Source: Clostridia bacterium
GTDB lineage: Bacteria > Bacillota > Clostridia > Oscillospirales > Acutalibacteraceae
DNA: 64,000 nt
Direction of reading: 5' to 3'
Assembly: GCA_024404095.1 (NCBI GenBank)
Contig: JAKSQO010000002.1
Span: forward strand, 62,001 to 126,000
The notes beneath the pieces are model-generated. The model saw nothing but the letters and a program-made list of their open reading frames with translations. It was not told the DNA's origin and searched no databases. Positions 47,356-63,919 of this stretch are shown piece after piece; positions within the stretch are counted from its first letter, which is position 1, and the number at the start of each line of letters is the position of its first letter. The position numbers and the translations under genes are program-made.

Positions 47356-47456
47356 AGTTGATGTGTATAAGTGTCTAAATGGGTATAGTGCGCCCTTTTG
47401 CAGACAACCACAATATCTTGTATTGCAGGATAATAACCTTACGGAGTGTGTCGCTT

Positions 47457-48203
47457 ATGGCTGAAAAAAAGACAAATTCTGCGTCAGGCAGCAAGCTCAG
47501 ACCTTTAGAGCTTTTGTACAGACCGGTATTTGATATTCATTTGAATATGGCGATTGACTATGAAACGTCAATGCGAATCAACGATCGTTCGCTTGGTGTT
47601 CTTCTTGAAAAAACTTTTATTCCCGTTGCGGAAAAGTCAAGCCAGGTTATTCAGCTCAATCTCTGGGCAGTCGAGGAAGCCTGTGAAGCGATGAAGCGAT
47701 GTGAGGAACGAGAGGCTGATGTAAACAGTGTTATACTCTGGATTTCTGTCAAATCTCTTGCTAAAAAGAATTTTGTTGATAAGGTAATTAAAATTGCCGA
47801 TAAATACGGAATTAACCACGACAGCTTCTGCTTCAATATAAACGAGAGTATTCTTGAGGCTGTTAAGGAACAGGTTATAGAAAGTATTACAAAGCTTCGT
47901 GAAAACGGTTTCAAGGTTTCAATTGATGACCTTGGTCTTGAATATACATCACTTTCAAACCTTACTCATTATGAAGTTGATTATATAGGCATTCATTCAA
48001 GCCTTGTTGACGGAATAATGACAAGTGAAAAAGTTCAGAATATGCTTCAGGGCATTATTGATTTCTGTAAGAAACTTGATACGCAGGTCAGAGTTGACGG
48101 CGTTGAATCAAAAGAAATGTTTGATTTACTTAATAAGATGGGTGTTGACCAGTTTACAGGACCTTATTTCGGAGAGCCCATGAAGGAAAAGCAAATCAGT
48201 TAA
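47457..48203 (+). CDS. Degenerate EAL-domain protein
   Basis: ATG at 47457 (MAEKKTNS) lies 10 nt after GGAG; the frame from 47379 is open but lacks a site. 248 residues. The fold follows a c-di-GMP phosphodiesterase EAL domain: LLYRPVFDIHLN, then YETSMRIND where EALLR is usual, FCFNINESIL for LEITES, SIDDLGLEYTSLSNL for AIDDFGTGYSSL, and RVDGVESKEM for AEGVET. Several metal and catalytic positions are replaced (E to N in LEITE; the KID lysine is missing), so it is more likely a c-di-GMP receptor than an enzyme. It opens the fibre-like locus. Confidence 0.8.
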   Translation: MAEKKTNSASGSKLRPLELLYRPVFDIHLNMAIDYETSMRINDRSLGVLLEKTFIPVAEKSSQVIQLNLWAVEEACEAMKRCEEREADVNSVILWISVKSLAKKNFVDKVIKIADKYGINHDSFCFNINESILEAVKEQVIESITKLRENGFKVSIDDLGLEYTSLSNLTHYEVDYIGIHSSLVDGIMTSEKVQNMLQGIIDFCKKLDTQVRVDGVESKEMFDLLNKMGVDQFTGPYFGEPMKEKQIS

Positions 48204-48216
48204 GGAGAGGATAAGC

Positions 48217-49023
48217 TTGGCAAAGAAGAATAAGAACGACCAGGCACCGAACGAGGAAGCTCTTCAGTATGACGACAGAATGAGTAAATACGGTGTTAAA
48301 ACCGAGTCGAAAAAAGTTAAAAAGAGAGAGGCTCTCATAAGAATACTTGTTATTATACTTGTTATTCTTTTACTGTTCCTTTCAATTATGTTTGCTTGTT
48401 CATCATACATAAACAAGGCCGGTGACTTCACGGTTACTATGGATAAGGATGCTTTCAACATGGGTATCACCCTTTCGGAAACACCAGATTTCAAAAGACC
48501 TACAAGATTCCTTGCAGGTGAAAAGTGCGAGGATATGCGCGAATGTACGCTTGGATGGCTGCCCGAAGATATCGATGATATCAACGGTACACATAATCGT
48601 TCCAACGGACAGGAATTTCTTGCATATACATTCTATGTAAAGAATGCAGGCGAGGTTGACGTAGGTTATTATGCATCAATCAAAATTGATTCAGCCGCTC
48701 TCGGCGTTGACGATGCGATGCGTGTAATGGTATATCATAATGGCGAGCCTTCAATTTACGCAAAGCCGAAGAAGGGCACACAGAGCGTGCTTGAAGATAA
48801 CGCAGGTTATTATGAAATAGATAAGAACTTCATTTCAGACGAAAAGGTTATGAGTCGTGAAGAGAAGTATTTCCCGGTTGGAGCAATTGACAAGTATACA
48901 GTTGTTATCTGGCTGGAAGGTTGGGATCCTGAATGTGTGGACGACATTCTTCAGGGAGAGGTTAAGCTTTCAATGAATTTCGCTGCTTACGAGCTCGATG
49001 GTAGTGACGGATCGGCTGCATAA
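48217..49023 (+). CDS. Membrane-anchored TasA-like domain protein (TTG start)
   Basis: TTG at 48217 is correctly placed after AAGGAGAGG (48202-48210), 13 bp behind the EAL gene. 268 residues: a hydrophilic basic N-terminus of about 40 residues, one uncleaved transmembrane helix (LIRILVIILVILLLFLSIMF), then an extracellular domain. Its end, TVVIWLEGWDPECVDD, and the earlier AMRVMVYHNG match the two SipW-type proteins downstream (VYIWMEGQDANCTND; AMRMGFVNCG), so it carries the same fold but with a permanent anchor in place of a cleavable signal. It may hold or nucleate the fibre; this is inference. Confidence 0.75.
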   Translation: MAKKNKNDQAPNEEALQYDDRMSKYGVKTESKKVKKREALIRILVIILVILLLFLSIMFACSSYINKAGDFTVTMDKDAFNMGITLSETPDFKRPTRFLAGEKCEDMRECTLGWLPEDIDDINGTHNRSNGQEFLAYTFYVKNAGEVDVGYYASIKIDSAALGVDDAMRVMVYHNGEPSIYAKPKKGTQSVLEDNAGYYEIDKNFISDEKVMSREEKYFPVGAIDKYTVVIWLEGWDPECVDDILQGEVKLSMNFAAYELDGSDGSAA

Positions 49024-49135: not shown

Positions 49136-50080
49136 ATGGAAAAGAAGAATCAGAAGAAAAGAGCAATATATGCTGCTATCGCAATGCTCCTTGTTTCAGC
49201 TATTGTAATGACAACAGCATCATTTGCTTGGTTCTCACTCGGAAGAAGCGCTCAGGTTGATAACCTTGATCTTAAGGTTACAAAAGAAGGCGAAGGTATA
49301 GCAATTTCTGCAAATGCATCAAAGTTTACAGATACAATTACTTTTGAAGAACTTCAGGGTACAGCATCTTCAGACTTTAAAGCAGTTTCTACAGAGTATA
49401 ACTATTTCCCTGAGAGAATCAGCCCTTCATCATCAGAATTTACAACTAACTCTCTGCCCGCATTCTTCACAGGCGGCATTGATAAGGTTGCAAAGAAGAT
49501 GTATGCTACTGCTTCAACATCTGCTGACGGTAAAACAATTTACGGTAAAGGCAATGATGAAGTCCCTTCAGGTGCAACAGCTGCAAGCTTCTACGCTTTT
49601 GACATCTTCATTAAGCTTGAAGGTAAGGATTCAGCTAAGATTAAGATGAGCAATTCTGCTATCAACGTTACAGCTGATCCCGACGAGTCAAGAGAAGAAG
49701 GCAATGCTGCTTTCTATGAAGCAACAGCTAAGGCTATGAGAATGGGTTTTGTTAACTGCGGTGTTACAACTTCAGAAAACCAGACTCCTTCAGGTACTGA
49801 GGCAACTATTTTCGGTATTGCAGAATCCGATGCTCGTAACACAAAGCCTGTTAAGGCTGCCGGCGAGTATGACGTTGCTGAAGGTGCAAGCACAGTTACA
49901 AGTCTTTCTACAAGCTATGCTTGCCAGGTTGACCAGGGTTCTGAGGATGTTACTCTTACTCTTTCCAGAGGTGTTAACCAGCTCAGAGTTTACATCTGGA
50001 TGGAAGGTCAGGATGCTAACTGCACAAACGATCTTATGAGTGAGTACATATCAGCAAATATCGTTTTCACACTGGTTTAA
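49136..50080 (+). CDS. SipW-type exported fibre-like protein, paralogue A
   Basis: 314 residues, ATG after AAGGAGG. The N-terminus (KKRAIYAAIAMLLVSAIVMT followed by ASFAWFSLG) is a SipW-cognate type signal peptide (TIGR04088-like) as in TasA/camelysin proteins. The mature part is Ser/Thr/Ala-rich and ends with AKAMRMGFVNCG near residue 200 and the block LRVYIWMEGQDANCTND near 285, shared with the next protein and with the membrane-anchored protein upstream. Family members form extracellular fibres in biofilm matrix. Lack of an anchor suggests release or assembly outside. A very strong ribosome site suggests abundance. Confidence 0.85.
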   Translation: MEKKNQKKRAIYAAIAMLLVSAIVMTTASFAWFSLGRSAQVDNLDLKVTKEGEGIAISANASKFTDTITFEELQGTASSDFKAVSTEYNYFPERISPSSSEFTTNSLPAFFTGGIDKVAKKMYATASTSADGKTIYGKGNDEVPSGATAASFYAFDIFIKLEGKDSAKIKMSNSAINVTADPDESREEGNAAFYEATAKAMRMGFVNCGVTTSENQTPSGTEATIFGIAESDARNTKPVKAAGEYDVAEGASTVTSLSTSYACQVDQGSEDVTLTLSRGVNQLRVYIWMEGQDANCTNDLMSEYISANIVFTLV

Positions 50081-50288: not shown

Positions 50289-51182
50289 ATGAAAAAAACA
50301 ATGAAAAAACGCGCATTCATTTCTGCAATTGCAATGCTTATCGTTTCTGCAATTGTTCTTACATCATCAACATTTGCATGGTTCTCAATGTCAAAAGAAG
50401 CTCAGGTTTCTTCAATGAACCTTAATATCACAACTGCTGATGGTATTTCAATTTCTGCAAACACAAAGAAGTTCGGTACAACAGTTACTGTTGACGACAT
50501 TATTCCTACAGCTGACAATGCCGGCAAGGGTCTTGCAGCTGATGCAGATCATACAAATAACATTCCTGAGCTTCTCGCTCCTGCGTCCTCAAGACTTACA
50601 CTTAGTGCATCTGATGGTTATCTTCCTGCGTTTTTCACAGGCTCAATAAGTGAAAATGGTTATTATGTTAATACAACAAAGGTTGCCAGCGATAAGGACG
50701 GTAAGTATGTTGTATTTGATCTTTTTGTTCAGGTTTCAGAGAACAATAAGGTCGTAAGTTTTAAGGGATCTTCAATTGAAAATACTGAAGAAAGTGTTCT
50801 TAAAGTTATGAGAATGGGTATCATTAACTGCGGATATGAAGAGTACCAGAATAGAGCAAATGTTAAGACAAAGACAACAAGCAATAGAAGTAATATTTCT
50901 CTTTGGGTTGTAGATGGAAATGCATCAGATAACACTCTCTACATCGACCACGCGGGTGATTTCGTCAAAGAAAGTGGTGGTGTATATACACAGTACGGTG
51001 TTGATCCCACATATGCAGCCAATGTATGCAAATCAGCTGATGCAGATGGTCTTACATTCACTGCAATGAAGGGCGTTAACCGCATAAGAATCTATCTTTG
51101 GGTAGAGGGTAATGATCCTGATTGTACAAATGATGTTGCCGGTAATAATTTTGACTTCAACCTTAAGCTCAGCATCGACTAA
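50289..51182 (+). CDS. SipW-type exported fibre-like protein, paralogue B
   Basis: 297 residues, start after GGAGG. The signal region (KKRAFISAIAMLIVSAIVLT then STFAWFSMS) is nearly the same as in the preceding gene. The following block SMNLNITTADGISISANTKK parallels DNLDLKVTKEGEGIAISANA of paralogue A, and the C-terminal half has LKVMRMGIINCG and IRIYLWVEGNDPDCTND. The two genes thus derive from a duplication. It is probably the second structural subunit, exported by Sec and cleaved by a SipW-like peptidase encoded next. Function as a fibre subunit is inferred from the TasA/CalY family. Confidence 0.85.
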   Translation: MKKTMKKRAFISAIAMLIVSAIVLTSSTFAWFSMSKEAQVSSMNLNITTADGISISANTKKFGTTVTVDDIIPTADNAGKGLAADADHTNNIPELLAPASSRLTLSASDGYLPAFFTGSISENGYYVNTTKVASDKDGKYVVFDLFVQVSENNKVVSFKGSSIENTEESVLKVMRMGIINCGYEEYQNRANVKTKTTSNRSNISLWVVDGNASDNTLYIDHAGDFVKESGGVYTQYGVDPTYAANVCKSADADGLTFTAMKGVNRIRIYLWVEGNDPDCTNDVAGNNFDFNLKLSID

Positions 51183-51231: not shown

Positions 51232-51324
51232 AGTAATCCGGTTAAAGGCGATTTATAGGCACTTTTATAAGGTGCTTATAAATGACCTTTAAAAGGCTCA
51301 AATAAATCAGAGGTGAATGTTTTA

Positions 51325-52017
51325 ATGAATGCAAAATTAAAAAATGCGATGGGGGTTATATCTGATATTTTGCTGGTAGTTATTATTGTTATAGCTATTG
51401 CAATTACTGTTATGACTTTCACATCAAAAAGCTCGGACAACAATGTGGGTAATATCCTCGGATATACACCTTTTTCAATTCAATCAAATTCAATGGCACC
51501 GACGTTTACAAGCGGTGACCTGATAATAGGTAAAGAAGTAACAAACGTTAATGAACTTAAGGTCGGAGATGTTATTACTTATTCAACAGTACTTGTTGAC
51601 GGAACCGGCAGAAGCGTCAGAGGTAACAATACCCATAGAATTTATGATATTGAGCTCAATCCCGACGGTACGGTTTCGTGCTTTGAAACAAAGGGAGACG
51701 CAGGGGATATGACCGACGCAATGCGAGTCCTTCCCGATGAGGTTCTCGCTAAGCAGGTTAACTCAGGCATAAATGAAGACGGAACATATAAAAACGGCGT
51801 AACAATCAAAAGCCTCGGTTCGGCATTGAATTTCCTGCAGAGCCGTACAGGATTTATGGTATGTATTATTATTCCTCTTGCACTGTTCTTTATCTGGCAG
51901 ATTTATAAGCTGATTGCTATGTTTATGGAAGTAAAGGCTGCTGATATTGACGAGGATACAAAACGACGTGCAGTAGAAGAGTATCTTGCTGAGCAGGCAA
52001 AAGCAAAAGAGGAATAA
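51325..52017 (+). CDS. SipW-like (ER-type) signal peptidase I, copy 1
   Basis: ATG at 51325 is 7 nt after AGAGGTGA; the GTG at 51313 lies within that site. 230 residues with an N-terminal helix (ISDILLVVIIVIAIAITVMTF) and a C-terminal one (CIIIPLALFFIWQIYKLIAMF). The catalytic Ser is in SIQSNSMAPTF (about Ser56) and the paired residue is His in NNTHRI (about His104), not Lys, as in SipW and eukaryotic/archaeal peptidases. It should cleave the SipW-type signals of the two proteins encoded just upstream. An acidic C-terminal tail follows. Confidence 0.92.
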   Translation: MNAKLKNAMGVISDILLVVIIVIAIAITVMTFTSKSSDNNVGNILGYTPFSIQSNSMAPTFTSGDLIIGKEVTNVNELKVGDVITYSTVLVDGTGRSVRGNNTHRIYDIELNPDGTVSCFETKGDAGDMTDAMRVLPDEVLAKQVNSGINEDGTYKNGVTIKSLGSALNFLQSRTGFMVCIIIPLALFFIWQIYKLIAMFMEVKAADIDEDTKRRAVEEYLAEQAKAKEE

Positions 52018-52130: not shown

Positions 52131-53684
52131 ATGGTAGTTACAAAATTCATTGCGGAGTTTTTAAATCAGTTCTTTATAAAAGGTGTCTGGGGTATATTTA
52201 AGGGTATTGGTCTTGGTATAGCTAATATCTTCAATATCCCTGAATATGTAAAAATATTCAAGTCATGGTCAGGCGATTTCAGCGCCGTTGACTGGATACT
52301 TGCAATTGTATCGGTTCTTGCAACAGTAGCAGTTCTTGCAGCAATTGTAATTATTCTTGTTGTTCTTATTAAAAAATACATCCGAGTACGTAAGACTCTT
52401 GTTGATCAGGAAGAGCTTCTTAACGAGGTTGGTAATCTTAACCGTGAAATTATCAAGCTTTCAAATGAGAAAGAAAAGATTCTTGCAATGAAGGTTTCAC
52501 AGCTTGGACTTAAGCCCGGTGAAAGCCCGTATCTTGAAAATGAAGAAAACGGTGAGGAGCAGGAAGAAAAGAAAGACGGCGAGGTTGATAAGACCGCAGA
52601 CGATTACAGCCGATTCTACAAATGTACTCAGGTTGACCTTGAACTTCCGAATTACGTTGCTCCTGATTTCGATAACGAGATTACACTTCCCGAGATCTGC
52701 GAAATGTTCCGTAACTATGCTTGCTCAAGACTTGGTCTTTTCTATGAGATAAAGATTATCCGTCTTTTCCTTTCGGCATTTGCTTCAACACGTCTTATTA
52801 TCCTTCAGGGTATTTCAGGTACTGGTAAAACTTCGCTTGCTTATGCTTGGGGTAAATTCCTCCAGAACCCTGTTACAATTGCATCTGTTCAGCCTTCATG
52901 GCGTGACCGTACTGAAATCTTCGGTTACTTTAACGAATTCACAAAGCGTTTTAACGAAACTGAAGTTCTTAAGAAAATGTACGAAGCAACATTTAAAGAG
53001 GAAATCTATCTTACAGTTCTTGACGAGATGAATATTGCCCGTGTTGAGTATTACTTCGCTGAGCTTCTTTCAATCCTTGAAATGCCGTCAAGAGATGAGT
53101 GGGTTGTTTCGCTTGTTCCGAGCGTATGGCCTACAGACCCTGCACACGTTATCGACGGTAAGCTCAAGCTTCCTGAGAATATGTGGTACATCGGTACAAT
53201 CAACAACGACGACTCTACGTTCGCTGTTTCCGATAAGGTTTACGACCGTGCTATTCCTATCGACCTTAACAGTAAGGGTAAGTTCTTTGAGGCTCCTTAC
53301 ACAGAGAACCTCGCCCTCAGCTACAAGCATCTTGAATCTATGTTCAGAGAGTGCCAGACAAAATACAAAGTATCTGATGAAAATCTTAAGAAAATTGAAG
53401 AGCTTGACGACTATGTTATTGAGCATTTCCGTCTTGCATTCGGTAACCGTATTGTTAAGCAGCTCAAGGAATTTGTTCCTGCATATGTCGGCTGCGGCGG
53501 TACAGAAATTGACGGTATCGACTTCGTTCTTGCAAAGAAAGTTTTCCGTAAGTTTGAAAGTCTGAACCTTTCATTTATCCGTGATGAAATCGACGGACTT
53601 GTTACATATCTTAATAAACACTTCGGTAAAGCTAACATGAACGAGTGTAAGGAATATCTTGAACTCCTCAAGAGACTTATGTAA
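52131..53684 (+). CDS. Membrane-anchored McrB-like AAA+ ATPase
   Basis: 517 residues. The N-terminus has an amphipathic region and a transmembrane helix at about 54-84 (WILAIVSVLATVAVLAAIVI), then a coiled-coil/acidic linker. The AAA+ module starts near residue 190; Walker A is GISGTGKTS (about 227-235) and Walker B is LTVLDEMNIARVEYYFAELL (about 293-312). This LDEMN-ARVEYYF wording is characteristic of the McrB family, followed by WYIGTINNDDSTFAVSDKVYDRA (sensor 1/Arg finger region). McrB proteins are cytoplasmic GTPases of restriction systems; membrane anchoring and the neighbouring fibre genes point to another role. The nucleotide (GTP or ATP) is not evident. Confidence 0.85.
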   Translation: MVVTKFIAEFLNQFFIKGVWGIFKGIGLGIANIFNIPEYVKIFKSWSGDFSAVDWILAIVSVLATVAVLAAIVIILVVLIKKYIRVRKTLVDQEELLNEVGNLNREIIKLSNEKEKILAMKVSQLGLKPGESPYLENEENGEEQEEKKDGEVDKTADDYSRFYKCTQVDLELPNYVAPDFDNEITLPEICEMFRNYACSRLGLFYEIKIIRLFLSAFASTRLIILQGISGTGKTSLAYAWGKFLQNPVTIASVQPSWRDRTEIFGYFNEFTKRFNETEVLKKMYEATFKEEIYLTVLDEMNIARVEYYFAELLSILEMPSRDEWVVSLVPSVWPTDPAHVIDGKLKLPENMWYIGTINNDDSTFAVSDKVYDRAIPIDLNSKGKFFEAPYTENLALSYKHLESMFRECQTKYKVSDENLKKIEELDDYVIEHFRLAFGNRIVKQLKEFVPAYVGCGGTEIDGIDFVLAKKVFRKFESLNLSFIRDEIDGLVTYLNKHFGKANMNECKEYLELLKRLM

Positions 53685-53723: not shown

Positions 53724-55991
53724 ATGGAAAAATCATATCTTGAACTGTTTTTGGAGCACAAGGATAGTCTTGCTGCCCTTACCGAGGGTAATGTGTTCTA
53801 TGATGCAATGGAAAATTGCATTGAAACAGGTGATAACAAATATTCTTTGTTTAACAGATATTTTGAAAAGAAAATCGACCTCAGATGGGTTGAGGAAATA
53901 GAAGCATGTATTATCCCCCTTGATAACATTATGCGTGTTCCGAGAAAGTTCATTGTTCAGGAGGAAGAAATTGTTCCGATTGAGCGTGCACGAAAGATTA
54001 CAAATGAATCTATACGTCACCTTGCTCAGCACACAAATATGATTGCCAAGGTTGAGGGCGACGATGTTACTCCCAACCAGATACTCAATGTTTTCCGTGA
54101 GGAAAGCTTTGAGGTTTATGAAAACAGATTTGTTTTCACTTTGATGCAGAATCTTATCAGATTTATCGATATCAGATATAATGTAATTTTCAATGTATCC
54201 GATGACGATAACATGGCTTCACTTAAAACCGAAAGCTCATTTTATCGCGGACGTGAGAAAATTACATATAAGCTTGAGGTTTCAGCTCAGTCAGGCGGCG
54301 GTGAAACAGACGACACCGCAACCGGTCTTGACGGAGAAAACGCATCAGCATTTCAGAGAATTGAGCGTATTAAGAAGATTATCAATGAGTACGCACATTC
54401 TTCATTCATGAAGGAGCTTCAGAACTGCGTTCCTGTCCGTCCTCCTATTATGAGAACAAATGCTATTCAGAAGAATCCAAATTTCAGAGCTTGTCTTAAG
54501 CTATGGCAGTTTATTCAGTCATATACAGACCTTGGTTATGAGATTACCGTTAAGGAATCTAATGATATGGTCAGCGATGAGTACAGAAGACAGATCGGTC
54601 AGATGGCCGCTATCAATTATATGATGCTCAAAGCCAATACGATGTCAGAGGATGCAGTCGGCAAGCAGAAGCGCCGTAAGATTAAGCCAAAACTTCTTAA
54701 GAGACTTGCTGAGGAGCTTGTTCTTGACTACGATATGGAAGACGTTGAGATTCAGCGTGTTTTCGTTGATGAAATTAAGCGTGTAAGCAAGCGCAAGATG
54801 GAAGCAGAAAAGAAGATTCAGGAAGCAATCCAGCGTTCTCTTGATGCTGAGAATGCACGCAAGAAGGCTATTGAGGATAAAATTAAAGCTCAGATTGCTC
54901 ATGAAAAAGAGATGGAGCGCAAGCGTATCGCAAGAGAAAAAGAGAGAGAACGTATTGCACTTCAGAAAGAGAAAGAGCGCATTGCAAAAGCAAAGGCGAA
55001 AGAGAAGGCAAGAATTGCAAAAGAGAAAGAAATGGCAAAGATTGCAAAACAGAAGGAAAGAGAAAAAGCAAGAATTGCCAAGGAGAAAGAAAAGCTCCGT
55101 CTTCAGAAAGAAAAAGAACGTGCCGAAAAGCTCAAAGCACGCGAAGAAGCACGTATTGCAAAGGAAAAGCAGCTTGAAGAAATGCGCATAGCAAAAGAAA
55201 AAGCTAAGAAGCAGGCAGAACTCGAGAAGCAGAGAGCTGCAAAGCAGGCTGCAATAGATAAAGAGAAAGCTGCAAAGGCTAAGGCGAAAGAGAAAGAGAA
55301 AGAGCGTCAGGCAAAGGCTCTTGCTGCCGAAAAAGCAAAAGCCAAGGCTGCGGCAGCAAAGCAGAAAGAGAAAGAAGCTATTATTAAGGCTCGTGAGGCA
55401 CAGGCTGAAAAAGACCGCATAGCTAAGGCAAAGGCTAAGGAAAAAGAACGCCTTGCAAAAGAGAAAGCTAAAGAGCAGGAAAGAATAGCAAAAGAAAAAG
55501 CTGCTGAAAAAGCAAAGATAGAGAAGCAGAAAGCTGCTGAAAAGGAAAAAGCAAAAGCTGCTGCGGCAAAACAAAAAGAAAAAGAAGCTGTTCTGAAAGC
55601 TCGTGAAGCACAGGCTGAGAAAGAGCGAATAGCTAAAGAAAAGGCTAAGGAAAAGGAAGCCATAGCAAAGCAGAAGGCTGCTGAAAAAGCAAAGGCTGAC
55701 AAGGAAAAAGCCAAGGCAAAAGAAAAAGAGCGCATTGCAAAGATGAAAGCGGCTCAGGCGGAAAAGGACCGAATAGCTAAAGAAAAAGCTAAGGAAAAAG
55801 AACGCATTGCCCGCGAGAAAATCAAAGAGCAGGAGCGCATTGCCCGTGAGAAGGCAAAGGAAAAAGAGCGTATAGCAAAAGAAAAAGCTAAAGCAAAAGC
55901 CAGGGAGCAGGAGCGAATAGCCCGCGAAAAGGCAAAGGCTAAGGAAAAGGCTCTTAAAGAGAAGACAGCAAAAGCTTCTAAGGAAGATTAA
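53724..55991 (+). CDS. DUF2357-like protein with 400-residue charged helical tail
   Basis: 755 residues, no signal peptide or transmembrane helix. Residues 1-350 include REESFEVYENRFVFTLMQNL (about 124-145), the hallmark of DUF2357, a domain found in McrC-like partners of McrB ATPases, here usually joined to a PD-(D/E)xK nuclease. In this protein no nuclease motif is visible; from about residue 354 to the end the sequence is almost only Lys, Glu, Ala, Arg, Ile and Gln in repeated units such as ERIAKEKAKEKERIAK, predicting a very long single helix or coiled coil. It is encoded 39 bp after the McrB-like gene, a conserved-looking pair. Confidence 0.8.
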   Translation: MEKSYLELFLEHKDSLAALTEGNVFYDAMENCIETGDNKYSLFNRYFEKKIDLRWVEEIEACIIPLDNIMRVPRKFIVQEEEIVPIERARKITNESIRHLAQHTNMIAKVEGDDVTPNQILNVFREESFEVYENRFVFTLMQNLIRFIDIRYNVIFNVSDDDNMASLKTESSFYRGREKITYKLEVSAQSGGGETDDTATGLDGENASAFQRIERIKKIINEYAHSSFMKELQNCVPVRPPIMRTNAIQKNPNFRACLKLWQFIQSYTDLGYEITVKESNDMVSDEYRRQIGQMAAINYMMLKANTMSEDAVGKQKRRKIKPKLLKRLAEELVLDYDMEDVEIQRVFVDEIKRVSKRKMEAEKKIQEAIQRSLDAENARKKAIEDKIKAQIAHEKEMERKRIAREKERERIALQKEKERIAKAKAKEKARIAKEKEMAKIAKQKEREKARIAKEKEKLRLQKEKERAEKLKAREEARIAKEKQLEEMRIAKEKAKKQAELEKQRAAKQAAIDKEKAAKAKAKEKEKERQAKALAAEKAKAKAAAAKQKEKEAIIKAREAQAEKDRIAKAKAKEKERLAKEKAKEQERIAKEKAAEKAKIEKQKAAEKEKAKAAAAKQKEKEAVLKAREAQAEKERIAKEKAKEKEAIAKQKAAEKAKADKEKAKAKEKERIAKMKAAQAEKDRIAKEKAKEKERIAREKIKEQERIAREKAKEKERIAKEKAKAKAREQERIAREKAKAKEKALKEKTAKASKED
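54784..55988 (+). repeat. Low-complexity region encoding the Lys/Glu/Ala-rich helix
   Basis: About 1.2 kb of purine-rich, imperfectly repeated codons (AAA, GAA, GCA, GAG) with no exact repeat unit. It produces long false open frames on the opposite strand (for example 54645-55574). Confidence 0.88.
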
Positions 55992-56037: not shown

Positions 56038-59000
56038 ATGAAAAAGAGGAGACTTGAAAGGGTTGCGGTGATGATCCTCAGCAGTGCTATGCTGATTTCA
56101 TCAACCGGAATAATGTCATCACTGGCTGCAACTGTCAGTGAGTCTTCCTCTGCGCCTACAAGTGCGTTTTCTGAGTCTGTTTCCTCCACAACAGTAGCTC
56201 AGGAAGGCGGAGTTGTAGCAAAGAATGATGTTGTTGAAGAGGGCGGAGCCCTTGTTCAGAACGAAAAGGGTGACGGAAGTGTTGAGAATCCTTATCAGAT
56301 TTCAAACGCAGAAGACTTCCTTAGAATGACCTCAAAAATCAATCTTACTACCGGCTCAGATAAATACTTTATTCTTACTTCAGATATTGACCTTTCTACA
56401 GTTACAGAAGAAAACTTTATAAAGAACGGCGGTTCACTTGTCGGTGTCAGCAAGAAGCTTGCGAAGAGCTCAGAAAATGTTTTCTTTAACCTTAACGGTA
56501 ACGGACATAAAATCAAGGGTCTTAATGTAAATGTAACATCCTCATCTATTGTTTCGATTTTTGGTTTCGTTAATGACAAATCTACAATCAAGAACATAAT
56601 TGTTGAGAAGCCGAGAATTACTTCAACGAGTGAAAATCTTGTTTCAGCTTCAACACTTGTATATGAAAACAAGGGTACAATCAACAATGTTCAGATTACA
56701 TATCCTGTAATCACGCTTGCCAAGTCAAAGTCTGCTGCTTTCGTTGCTTCAGTAAATGATGGAACAATATCAAAAGTTACAGTAAAGGCTTCGCACACAA
56801 ATGCAAGTGCAGCATCTGCTGACAATCACACAATATCTGCATTCGGTTCTGTTGGTGCTATTGCAGGCGTTAACCGCGGAAAAATTATTTCTTCATCTGC
56901 AATCAATATCGGTATGTTCATACCGACAGCGGCAGATTCTAAGACAGTTTACGGCGGCATTGCAGGTCGCAGCTCGGGCATCATCTCCGACTGTGTATCG
57001 ACAGGTAATGTTTTCGGCGGAAAATCAACTGATATTGCATCAGGTATTGTTGGTAAGGCTGAGACAGGACTTAAATTAACAAACAACTATACACTTGTTA
57101 CACTTTCAAATTCGGTGTCAGGTTATGCTGTAATCGGTACAGCTGGTACAGCCGATATGCTGACTGATTGTTACTGGTCAAGTGACGTAAGCCGCAGAAG
57201 TGTTCCGACAGCGGATTATGCAAATAATGAAAACAATCTTGCTGTAAGCTCATTCAAGGTTCTTCCTGCCGGAAAAACTCTGAAAATAGGAAAGTCCGAT
57301 ACTATGACAACATCATGGAGCAAGGCTGTATTTGAGCTTGACGGCGGATACAAAACAAAGAATGAAAATATTACTGCGAATGACAACGCAACTGAGATGA
57401 CTGTCAAGAGCGGAAAGATTGATTCTGTAAATACAGTATCTTATGCTGCTAAGATTTCTCTTCCGGCTTCTGTCGGTTCGGGTGCTCCTGTCAAGCAGAA
57501 TATGCGTATATATGTTCTTAATGTTCCTGCGGATACAAAGGGTAACGGAACAAAGGAGAATCCTCTCGAAATAAAAAATACAGCTGAATTTGGTTTCCTT
57601 GCTTATGCAACAGGCATACACTGCAAACTTGTGAATAATATAACAGCCACCAGCAAGGTGAATATGTTCAGAGGTTCAATTGACGGTTGCGGATATACTA
57701 TCAGCACAAAGAGTCCTCTTTTCAACACCTTCAGCGGTAAAGCAGAGAATCTCAATATTATTGTAAACAAGGATATATCAAGAGCTGTATTCGGTAACGT
57801 AATCGGTGCTTCTATGAGCAATATCGGTGTAGTCTTGAAAGATGGTGTAAGCTTTAAGGCTGAAAGCTCAAATTCAGGTATCCTCGCTGATAAAATTATA
57901 GGCAAATCAGCATTTGACGATTGCCGAGTAAAGGGCAATATCGTTGTTACTTCGGATAAAATTACAAATATCGGCGGTTTTGCAGGTATTGCAGCAGGTG
58001 AAGGCTCAATATTTACAAACAGCGGTGCAGTAACAAACATCACATCAGCTGAAGGTGTAAAATACAAATCAGCGGTAAACTTTATCGGTACTGTTTCTGC
58101 TGATAAGAGTATATTTGAAAACTGTTATGCAGGCGGTGCAAACAAAGCCGGTTCATATATGTTTATCGGTACGGCAGATGTGAAGTCTATAGCTGTAAAG
58201 AATATCTGCGTTGATTACGGCGCTGATAAGTCGGCGGCAGCACTTCCTGTTGATTTCAATTCCTGCGGTGAAAAGATAGACAAGAATCAGTTTACAGAGT
58301 GGAAGTTTGACAATGGAAATACAGGCTTCTTTACAGGCAACGGAAGCAAGTTTGAAACAACTCTTCCGTCAGTAAAAGCTGTTAAGAATTCATCTGCGTC
58401 AGACTTAAGCCTTGCTTATGACAAGACAAAGATTTCTGCATCAGTTACTGTTGCGGATGGCAAAGCAGTTCTCAGCGTCAGCCGTTTAAACGGTGTTGTT
58501 ACTGTCAAGGCGGTTCCTGTAACTGTTATCAATACAAAGACAGGTCTTTCAGCTGTTATATATGTATCAAACGGACTCGAAAAGGACGCAAAGGGCAACT
58601 GGATTGTTTCTTCTGCATTTGACCTTGCTTATATCGGAGAAAACATCGAAGAGATGAACAAGGCGAGCTTTGCGGTGAGCAAGAATATTGATATGTCGGT
58701 TGTCGATGGTTTTACACCGATTGGTTCAACGGGTACTGCATTCAGCGGAACCTTTGACGGAAACGGTCATACAATTTCAAATCTTAAGATAAACGGCACA
58801 GCAAAGACGGCTCTCTTCGGAACGCTTGCTGACGCAACCGTAAAGAATATTAAGCTTTCAAACGCTTCGGTTACTTCCGAAGGCGGATATGCGGCAGTTG
58901 TCGCAGGTCAGGCAACAGGAAAGACTGTTATCAGCGGAATTACTGTTGAAAAGTCAAACGTAAATGTCGCAGATAATTACTCAGCAATTATTGTTGCTTC

Positions 59001-62000
59001 GGTTGACAATGCATCGAATGTTAAAATTTCTGATATCAATGTTAAGAATTCAGCTGTTAAGTCAAGCGCAAACTATGCTGGTGCGGTTGCAGGTAAGATT
59101 ACCGATAACTGCTCTGTAAACAATGTAACCGTTGACGGCTTCACGGCGGTTGGTTCAAACTTTATTTCAGGTATTGCAGGCCTTGCAACCGGTGAAAAGT
59201 CAATCAATATAAGCAATGTTAAGGTAAATGCATCTGATATCAGCGGTGTATCCGAGATTTCAGGTATTGCTTCGGGCATCGGTTCGGGCGCTGTTATTAA
59301 GAATACAGAGGTTAAGTCCTCAGGGCTTTATACCCTTTCAACCGATTCGTCATTTGTTGCCGGCGGTATTTCGGCTGTATTCGGTTCAGTAATTGAAAAC
59401 GCTGTTGTTGATACAGCAAAAATTACAGCAGGTATTGCAGGCGGAATTGTCGGTAAGACTTCGGCTGATTGTGCACTTACAGTTAAGGGTGCAAAGGTTG
59501 TGTCAACTGATGTTTCTTCAGACGGTGCCAATACTGCTGCCGCAGGTATTCTTGCAGTACACAATACGAAGGGAAGCGCTGTAATTGAGAGTGGCTTCGT
59601 TGACGAAAAAACAAGTATAAACGGCGCAGCTGTGACAGCCGGAATTGTCGGTGATTGCTCAGGTGCTGACAGTATACTTAAAATAGAAGAAACAAAATCG
59701 TTTGCAGATGTAAATGGTTCGGAAACAGCAAATGCGGTTTCTGCCGCAGGTGGTCTCGGACGTATAGGCACATCAGCAATCAACAGCGTTTCAATCAACG
59801 GTGTTACAGTCGGCGGCTCGGTAAGCGGACTTAACACAGTCGGCGGAATTATAGGTCTTATCAAGAAGGGCGAGAGCTATAATTCAAAATCACCGGTTGT
59901 TTCAGCATCAATCGCTTTCTCCCGGCTCGAGGTGCTCAATCCTCAGACACAGGCAGGAATGATTGTCGGCGGTCTTGAATCTGACAAGGTTCTTGATTCA
60001 AAAATGCTCAATAAGGCATTTACAAATGTAATTGTTTCAACTTATTACGGTTCTGTCGGAGTTTACTCTCAGCAGAGCGAACTTGCAGGCGGAAATGTAA
60101 TTGATATGGATAAGCCGAATGGCAATCCGATAGTTGCTTCTGTTTCAAAGATTTCAACATATGACGAAGTGCCTGTATCAATCAGCAATCTTCCGAACGT
60201 TGACGGCTTTGTATTTGATTCGACAACAGGTTGGATTTCAGAATCTGACGAAAGAATCGAAGTGGTATCTTCAACAGAGAATTCTGCTGTTCTTAAGGCA
60301 AAACACATGGCAGATATTTCAGTTGTTTCATATTATGTACTTGACAGTGATGCACAGGTAAGAGTTCCGGTTCACTTTGAAGTTTCTTCTGATATCAGAA
60401 CACCTCTTAAGGGTAACGGCACAAAAGCAAGTCCGTACCTTGTTTCAAGCGCATATGACCTTGAAACAGTAGCTCAGTACAGTAGTGACAATGCATATTT
60501 TGTTCTTAGTGAGGATATTGTTCTTACTCCTGCTGATTTTGAGTTTGGTGGCGCATTCTACAATGTCGGAAACGGTTTCATTACAATCGGCAATGCAGAA
60601 AACGGCTTCAAGGGATCATTTAGCGGACTTTACAACGGAAAGATTCATTCAATCACAGGTCTTTCACTTGCAGGTAATGCTTTTGGCGGTCTCTTCGGTG
60701 CAACAGACGGTGCAGAGATTTCAGATATCGTAATTAACAAAGCTGATGTTTCGGGTCTCAATTACGCAGGTGTAATTGTAGGACACGCAAAGGATACTGT
60801 AATTAAGAACATTACAATCAATTCATCAGAGGTTAAGGCAACTGAATTTGGCGGATATGCAGGTTCTGTTGTCGGATATGCTGAGAATACGGAAATCGAG
60901 AATGTAAAGATTAACAGTTCTGCAATAAGGACAAATCTTGATGCAACCTCAGCTACTGTTGAGATTGCAGGCGGAATTGCAGGTGTATTCAACGGAACTG
61001 TTAAGAATATTGCAGTGAACAATTCAAGCGTCGAAGCAGGTACACTTGCAGGCGGAATTATCGGTGAAGTTCGTGGCGGCAAAGCTGTCATTAACGGTGT
61101 TTCAGTAAACGCTGATGTTACAGCGGATATAGCAGGCGGCGCAGTCGGAAGTGTTGATAACATTCTCAAGCTTAGTATTAACAAGTGTTACATAAGCGGC
61201 GAGGTTAACGGAACAGAGACTGCTGCGGGCTTGATAGGCTCAGTAAACGGTCAGACGGGTCTTGATAATGCTAAGGCTCCTGTCGCTGTTGATACAGTAA
61301 TTACTTCAAAGATTTCCAAAGCGGAAACAAACGGTATTCTCTTTGGTGCTGTGTCTGAAAAGGTTGTATGTGATAAGAAGAATGTTAATACAAAAGTATT
61401 TAATGATATTTATTATTCTTCTTACCAAAACGATATGAGCCTGTTCGGAAATGATAAGATTAAGGCATATCAGTATGCGGATTACGATGCAACAGATCTC
61501 AACAATATAGTGTTTGTTGCGGACGGTGCTGAATACGATTCAATTGTTTGCGGTGCGGATGCGGTTGTACTTGATGCAGATTCGCTTAAGCTGAATGGTG
61601 TCAAGGGCGATTACAAGTCATTTACCGCAGCGGATAAAATCTTTAAGCTTGAAAATGTCAAGTCTGTTTCCGAAAATGCGTTAGTATATAATAGTGCAGA
61701 TTCTTCTTTGAGGTTCAGCTCGGATAATGTAGACAATGCAACAGCTGTTCTTGAATATAATGACGGTCTTGAAATTGCAGTTGATGTAGTAAGAGGTGCA
61801 GATAATAAGCCGGAAGCTGCGGACACAACGGTTGTTACTGCAAAGATTAAGGATAAGACTGACGGTGCACTTAAAGATAAGCTTATCGGTGTTTCATTAA
61901 AGACTAAGGACAATGATAAAGTATATTCAGCAGACAGCTTTATAAAGGTTAACTCAAAGACGGTTGCCGCTGTTGCGGGAGCTGACAACGGAATTTATAT

Positions 62001-62199
62001 CAGCGCTGTTCTTCCCCAGAACGTATCTTACAGCGTAACTGCTGTTGACGAAAACGGAAATGAGCTTAAAACCGTAAATGCAGGCAGCGAAGGTTACTTT
62101 GTTTCTGCTGAAAATGCTGAGTCAGCAGCTGTAACGATTACAGCTGAGAGCAATAGCGTATGGGGCTTGCACGCTGTTTGGGGTGCAATAGGTAAATAA
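56038..62199 (+). CDS. Giant secreted GLUG-type beta-helix protein
   Basis: 2053 residues. The signal peptide starts KKRRLERVAVMILSSAMLIS and ends near SLA-A. At least four modules open with an entry motif of the form GxGTxExPyxIxxAxDL: about residues 80, 502, 850 and 1458. Between them run many short Gly/Ala/Val/Asn-rich repeats such as AGAVAGKITDNCSVNNVTV, typical of GLUG repeats that stack into a beta-helix. No LPxTG, S-layer or dockerin motif is visible; the C-terminus is SVWGLHAVWGAIGK. It is presumably an adhesin or matrix protein, 46 bp behind the DUF2357-like gene. The anchoring mode is unknown. Confidence 0.85.
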   Translation: MKKRRLERVAVMILSSAMLISSTGIMSSLAATVSESSSAPTSAFSESVSSTTVAQEGGVVAKNDVVEEGGALVQNEKGDGSVENPYQISNAEDFLRMTSKINLTTGSDKYFILTSDIDLSTVTEENFIKNGGSLVGVSKKLAKSSENVFFNLNGNGHKIKGLNVNVTSSSIVSIFGFVNDKSTIKNIIVEKPRITSTSENLVSASTLVYENKGTINNVQITYPVITLAKSKSAAFVASVNDGTISKVTVKASHTNASAASADNHTISAFGSVGAIAGVNRGKIISSSAINIGMFIPTAADSKTVYGGIAGRSSGIISDCVSTGNVFGGKSTDIASGIVGKAETGLKLTNNYTLVTLSNSVSGYAVIGTAGTADMLTDCYWSSDVSRRSVPTADYANNENNLAVSSFKVLPAGKTLKIGKSDTMTTSWSKAVFELDGGYKTKNENITANDNATEMTVKSGKIDSVNTVSYAAKISLPASVGSGAPVKQNMRIYVLNVPADTKGNGTKENPLEIKNTAEFGFLAYATGIHCKLVNNITATSKVNMFRGSIDGCGYTISTKSPLFNTFSGKAENLNIIVNKDISRAVFGNVIGASMSNIGVVLKDGVSFKAESSNSGILADKIIGKSAFDDCRVKGNIVVTSDKITNIGGFAGIAAGEGSIFTNSGAVTNITSAEGVKYKSAVNFIGTVSADKSIFENCYAGGANKAGSYMFIGTADVKSIAVKNICVDYGADKSAAALPVDFNSCGEKIDKNQFTEWKFDNGNTGFFTGNGSKFETTLPSVKAVKNSSASDLSLAYDKTKISASVTVADGKAVLSVSRLNGVVTVKAVPVTVINTKTGLSAVIYVSNGLEKDAKGNWIVSSAFDLAYIGENIEEMNKASFAVSKNIDMSVVDGFTPIGSTGTAFSGTFDGNGHTISNLKINGTAKTALFGTLADATVKNIKLSNASVTSEGGYAAVVAGQATGKTVISGITVEKSNVNVADNYSAIIVASVDNASNVKISDINVKNSAVKSSANYAGAVAGKITDNCSVNNVTVDGFTAVGSNFISGIAGLATGEKSINISNVKVNASDISGVSEISGIASGIGSGAVIKNTEVKSSGLYTLSTDSSFVAGGISAVFGSVIENAVVDTAKITAGIAGGIVGKTSADCALTVKGAKVVSTDVSSDGANTAAAGILAVHNTKGSAVIESGFVDEKTSINGAAVTAGIVGDCSGADSILKIEETKSFADVNGSETANAVSAAGGLGRIGTSAINSVSINGVTVGGSVSGLNTVGGIIGLIKKGESYNSKSPVVSASIAFSRLEVLNPQTQAGMIVGGLESDKVLDSKMLNKAFTNVIVSTYYGSVGVYSQQSELAGGNVIDMDKPNGNPIVASVSKISTYDEVPVSISNLPNVDGFVFDSTTGWISESDERIEVVSSTENSAVLKAKHMADISVVSYYVLDSDAQVRVPVHFEVSSDIRTPLKGNGTKASPYLVSSAYDLETVAQYSSDNAYFVLSEDIVLTPADFEFGGAFYNVGNGFITIGNAENGFKGSFSGLYNGKIHSITGLSLAGNAFGGLFGATDGAEISDIVINKADVSGLNYAGVIVGHAKDTVIKNITINSSEVKATEFGGYAGSVVGYAENTEIENVKINSSAIRTNLDATSATVEIAGGIAGVFNGTVKNIAVNNSSVEAGTLAGGIIGEVRGGKAVINGVSVNADVTADIAGGAVGSVDNILKLSINKCYISGEVNGTETAAGLIGSVNGQTGLDNAKAPVAVDTVITSKISKAETNGILFGAVSEKVVCDKKNVNTKVFNDIYYSSYQNDMSLFGNDKIKAYQYADYDATDLNNIVFVADGAEYDSIVCGADAVVLDADSLKLNGVKGDYKSFTAADKIFKLENVKSVSENALVYNSADSSLRFSSDNVDNATAVLEYNDGLEIAVDVVRGADNKPEAADTTVVTAKIKDKTDGALKDKLIGVSLKTKDNDKVYSADSFIKVNSKTVAAVAGADNGIYISAVLPQNVSYSVTAVDENGNELKTVNAGSEGYFVSAENAESAAVTITAESNSVWGLHAVWGAIGK

Positions 62200-62218
62200 A
62201 CAAAGGGTTGATGTTGTG

Positions 62219-62833
62219 ATGAAGAAAAAGTTTCAATTTTATAAAAACATAATATTAGTTGTGGCATCAGCCCTCACTCTTATAGCTGTTACATTTGCAT
62301 GGTTCAGCACGTCAAATCTTAACGGCGTTTCAGGATTTAGGCACAACATCGGTGCAGACCTGATTGACGTAGACTTTTATGAAAAGACAGGCTCGGTTTA
62401 TGAAAAGCTTGACGGCGATATAAGTCTTGAGGGTGCTGTAAGCGGTACTTTTTCTCAGTATAAAATGGTTGTAACAACACTTACTTCTGACAAGCTTAAG
62501 CTTTCGTTTGGCATTGATGATTTACCGGGAAATATGAATGCTGACCTTAAAAAAGCTGTTTGCATAAAGTATTCACTTTACTCTGCTACTAAGAACCAGA
62601 ACGGAACATTTACTGAAGGTACATTGATTTCATCTTCCAACGATGCATATGTTCCTTTGTCTGAACTTTCAGACGGTGTAATTATCAATTCACTTTCGCT
62701 TGGTCAGTATCAAAGCACAGATATGGATTACTTTGTTGTATATTACGAAATAGGAATCGCAGAAGGTGCAAGCAACATCCAGGGTCAGTCATCTTCGCTT
62801 GGTAGTGTTCGCTTCAGCGCACAGGTTGCTTAG
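62219..62833 (+). CDS. SipW-type exported small protein C
   Basis: Start at ATG 62219 or GTG 62216; both follow AAAGGG. 204 residues. The signal region (YKNIILVVASALTLIAVTFA then WFSTSN) is SipW-type. The mature part has TasA-like strands (SQYKMVVTTLTSDKLKLSFG; later MDYFVVYYEIGIAEGAS) but lacks the WxEGxDPxC block of proteins A and B, so it forms a second subgroup. It is encoded 17 bp after the giant protein and 5 bp before a second SipW-like peptidase; it is probably a minor subunit or the partner linking fibre and giant protein. Confidence 0.82.
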   Translation: MKKKFQFYKNIILVVASALTLIAVTFAWFSTSNLNGVSGFRHNIGADLIDVDFYEKTGSVYEKLDGDISLEGAVSGTFSQYKMVVTTLTSDKLKLSFGIDDLPGNMNADLKKAVCIKYSLYSATKNQNGTFTEGTLISSSNDAYVPLSELSDGVIINSLSLGQYQSTDMDYFVVYYEIGIAEGASNIQGQSSSLGSVRFSAQVA

Positions 62834-62838
62834 AACTT

Positions 62839-63438
62839 ATGGAAAAAGCAAAAAAAATATTTACAAGGATAATGTCAGTTCTGTCTGTGCTGATATTCCT
62901 CTTCGGTTTGTTTATATTTGTTACTGTACTAAATGCTTCAGCAGGTAAGGTACCGAGCGTATTCGGATATAGTTTTCTACAGGTTCAGACAGGCAGTATG
63001 GAACCGGAGTATCCCGTCGGATCAATTGTTATTGCAAAAAAAATTGATACAAAAGAACTGAAAACAGGAGATGTAATCAGTTTTTATTCTACAGATAAAG
63101 AGATATCACAGAAAGTTGTTACTCACAGAATTACTGAAATTTCTTCTAATATGAAGGGCGTACCTACCTTTACTACTAAGGGTGATGCAAATACTATTGA
63201 GGACAGAGAGTCTGTAAGTTCAATAATGGTTATCGGAAAGGTTGTATACAGCATCGGTGCTGTCGGCGGTTCGGTAATCAGCGTTTTAAAGAATCCGAAT
63301 GTTATTTTCTTTTTTATTGTTCTTCCGTTGATTTTTATAACTTTTGGTGAAGCAGTCAACCTTGTTACGCTGGTTGTAAACAGTAAAGAGGAAAAGAAAG
63401 AAGAAGAAAATGAACGACCTGAAAAAACAGAAGATTAA
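62839..63438 (+). CDS. SipW-like signal peptidase I, copy 2
   Basis: 199 residues, two membrane helices (LSVLIFLFGLFIFVTVL and VIFFFIVLPLIFITFGEAV). Catalytic Ser in QTGSMEPEYPVGS (about Ser53) and His in VVTHRI (about His96), again the Ser-His type. The C-terminus is strongly acidic and lysine-rich. The gene starts 5 bp after the small SipW-type protein and overlaps the next peptidase gene by 29 bp. It differs well from copy 1, so it is probably specific to the substrates at this end of the locus. Confidence 0.93.
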   Translation: MEKAKKIFTRIMSVLSVLIFLFGLFIFVTVLNASAGKVPSVFGYSFLQVQTGSMEPEYPVGSIVIAKKIDTKELKTGDVISFYSTDKEISQKVVTHRITEISSNMKGVPTFTTKGDANTIEDRESVSSIMVIGKVVYSIGAVGGSVISVLKNPNVIFFFIVLPLIFITFGEAVNLVTLVVNSKEEKKEEENERPEKTED

Positions 63439-63919
63439 CGCATTACTGACAGCTGTAATAATTTTCGTTTCGGTTATTTGTGTCGGTGTTGTATATGCGC
63501 CAAAGCTCATGGGTTATCAGTCCTACTCGATTGAAACCGGAAGCATGGAGCCGACAATACCGCGCGGCAGTATGGTTTATGTTAAACCGATATCCGACCC
63601 TTCGGAATACTGCGTTGATGATGTTGTTACATTTTCTGCTAATGATGAACAGGGTAGTTTTACACATAGAATTGTCAGGATAGACAGCGAGAAAAGAACC
63701 TTTGAAACTCAGGGTGATGCAAACGCTGACATTGACATATCACCGACTCCCTTTGAATTTGCTGTCGGTAAGGTTCAGTTTGCAATCCCATTGCTCGGAT
63801 TTATTGCGGGTTTTCTCAGAAAAACAGTTATCAAAATAGCGGTTGCCGTTATTTATATTGCGTGGGCAGCCATAGAAATAGAAGTATTTATCGCGGAAAG
63901 GAAGAAGAGAGATGAGTAA
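63410..63919 (+). CDS. SipW-like signal peptidase I, copy 3
   Basis: 169 residues; ATG at 63410 overlaps the previous gene by 29 bp, so translation is coupled. N-terminal helix (ALLTAVIIFVSVICVGVVYA), catalytic Ser in ETGSMEPTIPRGS (about Ser45), His in SFTHRI (about His86), and a C-terminal helix (IKIAVAVIYIAWAAIEIEVF). It is the shortest of the three. Two peptidases adjacent to each other and two SipW-type proteins on either side suggest one-to-one pairing of enzyme and substrate. Confidence 0.92.
   Translation: MNDLKKQKINALLTAVIIFVSVICVGVVYAPKLMGYQSYSIETGSMEPTIPRGSMVYVKPISDPSEYCVDDVVTFSANDEQGSFTHRIVRIDSEKRTFETQGDANADIDISPTPFEFAVGKVQFAIPLLGFIAGFLRKTVIKIAVAVIYIAWAAIEIEVFIAERKKRDE

Follow-up and report, generated by a model that had tools for sequence, protein, structure and literature searches.

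A pair of McrBC-like genes in a Clostridia bacterium is, judging from its sequence features, almost certainly a CoCoPALM system, a kind that has been named and is still uncharacterised. The pair consists of an AAA+ protein related to the restriction motor McrB, with a predicted N-terminal membrane anchor, and a McrC-like partner, and it is encoded among genes for SipW-type signal peptidases and exported proteins. The preferred reading, to which a probability of roughly 55% is given from sequence, structural models and analogy, is that the locus is a CoCoPALM-type derivative of McrBC in which a membrane-held AAA ring, triggered by the DUF2357 protein, would drive or gate SipW-processed surface fibres instead of moving along DNA. 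The window referred to below is the whole stretch of 64,000 nucleotides that was analysed, and all features given with window coordinates lie on its forward strand.

The name CoCoPALM was given to a clade of McrB-like GTPases of the NxD type that carry a fused FtsB-like transmembrane and coiled-coil domain and are accompanied by signal-peptidase genes (Bell et al., 2024, eLife RP94800, PMC11090510). In that article's treatment of the clade, the name is confined to a single paragraph, with a later paper promised (Bell et al., 2024). Full-text literature searches returned no further work on CoCoPALM and no experimental test of it.

The McrB-like AAA+ protein

The AAA+ gene (52131..53684) has an ATG start and a plausible ribosome-binding site, AAAGGGTGG, and encodes a protein of 517 amino acids. 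In a phmmer search, E. coli McrB was its sole PDB match below 1e-3 (E 4e-07, residues 205-417), and the NCBIfam McrB model NF008457 was matched with E 8.4e-08 at 31 of 637 bits, far below its cut-off. Pfam AAA_5 is marginally under threshold in the window protein and is detected in 21 of 22 relatives; the AAA part of the AF2 model is similar to McrB and to other AAA_5-type ATPases. Walker A is GISGTGKT (residues 227-234; 52809..52832), invariant in the alignment of relatives, Walker B is LDEMN (residues 297-301; 53019..53033), and the sensor-1/NxD motif is NNDD (N358-N359-D360-D361; 53202..53213), invariant as well. These motifs and the phmmer match confirm the McrB wording around Walker B that had been pointed out in the sequence-only reading. 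All 22 diverse relatives keep Walker A, the acidic pair of Walker B, NNDD and then DxxxDR. When the window sequence is aligned alone, NNDD falls gap-free on the NTAD of E. coli, so that the NxD motif is ambiguous without the relatives. Relatives outside the transmembrane clade carry NIDE, NMDE or NQDE at this position, and the D at +2 is thus the common residue of the motif. From the aligned sequences, the domain belongs to the NxD branch, like that of CoCoPALM.

The N-terminal part starts with a conserved amphipathic segment (residues 1-50), followed by a predicted transmembrane helix (residues 54-84; 52290..52382), a conserved coiled-coil stalk continuous with this helix (residues 85-124; 52383..52502) and an acidic linker whose pLDDT is mostly low (residues 125-160; 52503..52610). 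The top 19-residue window of the helix has a mean Kyte-Doolittle value of 3.42, and a hydrophobic window of at least 2.9 is found at the same position in 56/56 full-length orthologues, with identity down to 53%. KKYIRVRK follows the helix directly, and the AAA part would therefore be cytosolic by the positive-inside rule. In the AF2 model, computed with 22 relatives, residues 52-124 form a single unbroken helix that lies apart from the AAA fold (mean pLDDT 76.6). The earlier reading had proposed a hydrophobic helix at about residues 54-84 and had named structure prediction as a check, with a helix buried in a soluble fold speaking against the proposal; hydropathy, the orthologues and the model all agree with the helix as proposed, and the model places it outside the fold. 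Its claim that no DNA-binding domain occupies the N-terminus also holds: a Pfam search found no match to a DNA-binding family there, and the amphipathic segment, transmembrane helix, coiled coil and acidic linker are present instead. The acidic linker that it described is retained for residues of about 125-160, while those of about 85-124 are better seen as the coiled coil. By sequence and model, this arrangement corresponds to the N-terminal transmembrane and coiled-coil domain fused to the GTPase in CoCoPALM.

The McrC-like partner

The partner gene (53724..55991) starts 39 bases 3′ of the AAA+ gene in the same direction, and its product combines DUF2357 with a helical tail of about 415 residues rich in K, E, A and R; no nuclease domain was detected in it. 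DUF2357 (PF09823) was found in the window partner with E 1.7e-9, and also in 31/31 relatives tested. The full-length window partner gives no Pfam match whereas its first 400 residues do, probably because of the biased tail. When the AF2 model was compared with known structures, four McrC structures ranked first to fourth (Z 7.0-7.7 over 133-146 residues), and in Foldseek alone the match was weak (E 0.08). In McrC, the N-domain, DUF2357, provides the stalk that enters the McrB ring (Bell et al., 2024, eLife RP94800; Nat Commun 2019, 10:3058), and the profile and model indicate that the partner is the McrC homologue expected of a CoCoPALM system, usually one with a coiled coil. Scanned over its full length, the window partner showed no PDDEXK match at E 1, and five other full-length partners from the transmembrane clade showed none at E 0.01; among the genes adjoining relatives without the transmembrane helix, DUF2357 occurs together with PDDEXK_7 in three of the four tested.

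The tail of the window partner contains neither Pro nor Gly. Among relatives, tails are K/E/A/R-rich in the window's group and form heptad coiled coils in Ruminococcus, in both cases with few Pro or Gly. A single alpha-helix of the ER/K type was considered for the window tail and rejected: opposite-charge pairs at i/i+4 number 55 versus 64 ± 6 in shuffled sequences, i.e., not above them, and the claim is therefore limited to a long helix free of Pro and Gly. The sole match in a PDB profile search with the partner was discarded as a chance match between coiled coils. In two relatives (L046, 5313-7778, and L054, 4919-7534), the partner has an additional C-terminal domain ending in STxGIYYYR.

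The gene cluster

Upstream of the pair, an EAL-domain protein (47379..48203; PF00563, E 1.8e-49) is encoded, as it is upstream in part of the relatives (about 20). Its catalytic motifs are degenerate, with alterations at the EAL, Lys and EGVE-Glu positions, and it is possibly a c-di-GMP sensor instead of an active phosphodiesterase. It is followed by a single-TM membrane protein kept in most relatives (48217..49023), by two fibre-like exported proteins whose signal peptides end in SFAWFS (49136..50080) and TFAWFS (50289..51182), respectively, and by a SipW-type (ER-type) signal peptidase I (51313..52017). The peptidase matches NF046067 with E 1.4e-23, below the cut-off curated for the Bacillus equivalog, and the archaeal-type model TIGR02228 with 68 bits, above the cut-off of 51.85; it has SM and THRI motifs, the His of the latter being expected of ER-type enzymes. 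On these matches, it has the features of the SipW (ER-type) signal peptidase of a SipW/TasA fibre system.

Downstream of the pair are a repetitive exported protein of 2053 aa, GLUG-like by eye and without a Pfam match (56038..62199), a further fibre-like exported protein with TFAWFS (62216..62833), and a second (62839..63438; PF10502, E 1.4e-5, and a match to NF046067) and a third (63410..63919; PF10502, E 1.1e-5) SipW-like signal peptidase. Close relatives have orthologues of the repetitive protein, of similar size, in the corresponding position. The cluster extends past the window (L002, 217-5705) with more exported proteins of the A-[WYF]-F type, a fourth SipW-like peptidase and two small membrane proteins. 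All four SipW-like genes of the genome, three of them in the window, and the sole DUF2357 found there are located in this cluster. Promoter-like sites occur at background and terminator-like sites somewhat above it, and neither defines an operon.

Conservation and evolution of the locus

The setting was compared over 66 related loci from named genomes and 20 from class-level genomes, and the layout proved to be fixed. The partner gene comes next after the AAA gene in 67 of 70 loci. Within the 3 kb upstream of the AAA gene, a SipW-type signal peptidase is encoded in 58 of 64 loci (HMM count), so that associated genes of the signal-peptidase family, a further feature of CoCoPALM, are observed here too. 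Signal peptides ending in A-[WYF]-F were found in 112 of 285 same-strand neighbours versus 1 of 44 opposite-strand genes, although some of these genes may be unrelated because the search was based on the pattern; in 33/33 exported proteins, the A-W-F motif is invariant. An aromatic residue just past the cleavage site is the mark of TasA, which is cleaved by SipW in Bacillus. None of the exported proteins matched TasA or camelysin in searches with NCBIfam, Pfam and PDB profiles, with one of the 33 giving a weak match to TapA; as neither model recognizes them, they can be called fibre subunits only by inference. In a sample of 150 genomes of the family, SipW is present in 19/19 with the AAA gene versus 69/131 without it (Fisher p 1.6e-5). 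The many AAA-less genomes having SipW imply that the motor is not required for every SipW pathway.

A tree built from 43 AAA domains places all 35 that have a membrane helix on one side of a single branch (SH-aLRT 83), several outgroup branches being long, and the topology is consistent with one gain of the helix. The nearest relative without the helix is found in a faecal "Bacteriophage sp." contig (MT835511.1, locus L139, 10681-15250), in which a soluble, coiled-coil McrB-like AAA protein with NQDE precedes a DUF2357-like ORF. A SipW gene is absent there, and this phage AAA, soluble and without SipW, was rejected as a member of the clade and treated as an outgroup. A variant arrangement also occurs: in L129 (7241-11511), L130 (8031-12603) and L131 (7749-11722), a single DUF2357 gene lies between the genes of two membrane AAAs that are paralogues. 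These three form a sub-branch with no SipW nearby and with large membrane-anchored exported proteins; L131 has in addition a 903-aa membrane protein with a transglutaminase-core domain.

Relation to known systems

The four features described above, i.e., the NxD(D) McrB-like domain, its transmembrane and coiled-coil N-domain, the DUF2357 coiled-coil partner and the signal-peptidase genes, place the locus with CoCoPALM. No tested feature differs between the two; at this locus, the peptidases are of the SipW/ER type and their probable substrates are visible. The conserved helix, the secretion context and a partner in which no nuclease domain was detected lend support to the idea of a membrane-tethered McrB-like motor that departs from restriction, but such a motor has a precedent in CoCoPALM, which was already named.

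E. coli McrBC, the Type IV restriction system (PDB 6hz4, 6ut6), shares with the locus the AAA+ core and the helical-bundle/stalk domain of McrC, and by sequence and model an McrB-like AAA+ protein is paired with an McrC-type DUF2357 partner here as well. In contrast to the locus, the E. coli system is soluble and has an N-terminal DNA-binding domain, an active PD-(D/E)xK nuclease and an NxxD motif; neither a PD-(D/E)xK domain in the McrC homologue nor, as far as sequence and model indicate, a DNA-binding specificity domain appears at the locus. CoCoNuT systems share with the locus the NxD branch and coiled coils, and an active nuclease is often absent from their McrC homologues, but they pair with HEPN or other nucleases, whereas the locus has none among the domains tested and has a membrane helix. 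The tapA-sipW-tasA fibre operon of B. subtilis resembles the locus in that a SipW-type peptidase adjoins exported proteins that carry an aromatic residue close to where they are cleaved; as described, this operon has no McrBC pair, and the exported proteins of the locus, in turn, fit no TasA/camelysin model.

Possible functions

The mechanism proposed here is derived from McrBC and from the genomic setting. The AAA domains would form a hexameric ring at the inner face of the membrane, held by six transmembrane helices with the N-terminus out. The stalk of the DUF2357 protein would enter the ring and set off NTP hydrolysis as McrC does, and the long tail of the partner may serve as a lever, a spacer or a tether. 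The motor would then drive or gate the export, release or assembly of SipW-processed surface fibres, not the translocation of DNA. Counted for a fibre motor of this kind are the transmembrane helix (56/56), DUF2357 in the partner (31/31), SipW upstream (58/64) and the partner as next gene (67/70), and counted against it are the variant with two membrane AAAs and no SipW, the occurrence of SipW without the AAA gene, the lack of a TasA/camelysin match and a PADLOC match to PDC-M26A. To our knowledge, the SipW fibre pathway has no cytosolic NTPase of its own. A further form of the proposal, in which a restriction-derived AAA+ protein is the energy engine of Gram-positive fibre secretion or assembly, a membrane McrB ring and a nuclease-free McrC powering the export or polymerisation of SipW-processed fibres, is put forward tentatively, and the odds are somewhat against it.

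Unlikely, and yet the best of the alternatives, is a membrane-anchored anti-phage system, in which the two McrBC-like proteins would detect infection at the envelope and then either shut the cell down or keep the phage out, the surface proteins covering the receptor or acting as the effector. The ancestry of McrBC is defensive, the presence of the gene is patchy (about 19/150 genomes of the family), and PADLOC reports the related candidate defence family PDC-M26A with E 6.4e-37, which is, however, a candidate family and not an established function. Against defence, scans of the window partner and of class-level partners detected no toxic effector domain, be it a nuclease, HEPN or another kind, and the linkage to SipW and fibre-like genes is stable across many genera. 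A scaffold or positioning device is next and likewise improbable: here the transmembrane helix, coiled coils and long tails would organise a secretion site or the envelope, and NTP turnover would control assembly only. The helical tails are long and similar in length while varied in chemistry, the N-domain was called FtsB-like (Bell et al., 2024, eLife RP94800), and weak Pfam matches to FtsL/FtsL_2 were obtained for it in 3 of 22 members (best 0.011); the invariance of Walker A, Walker B, sensor-1 and the arginine of DxxxDR, however, implies selection for catalysis. A conventional Type IV restriction enzyme bound to the membrane by chance, which McrB/McrC homology would suggest, is disfavoured and very improbable: the N-terminus matches no DNA-binding family, no nuclease domain was detected in the partner, and the context is one of secretion genes.

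Implications

If the fibre-motor reading is true, not every McrB-like match should be counted as phage defence. A DNA-cutting defence machine would have become an envelope machine through replacement of its DNA-binding domain by a membrane anchor and loss of its nuclease, and SipW-type fibre systems would gain a dedicated motor. For the CoCoPALM idea, in turn, there would be a defined gene cluster to work on, with probable substrates and clear tests.
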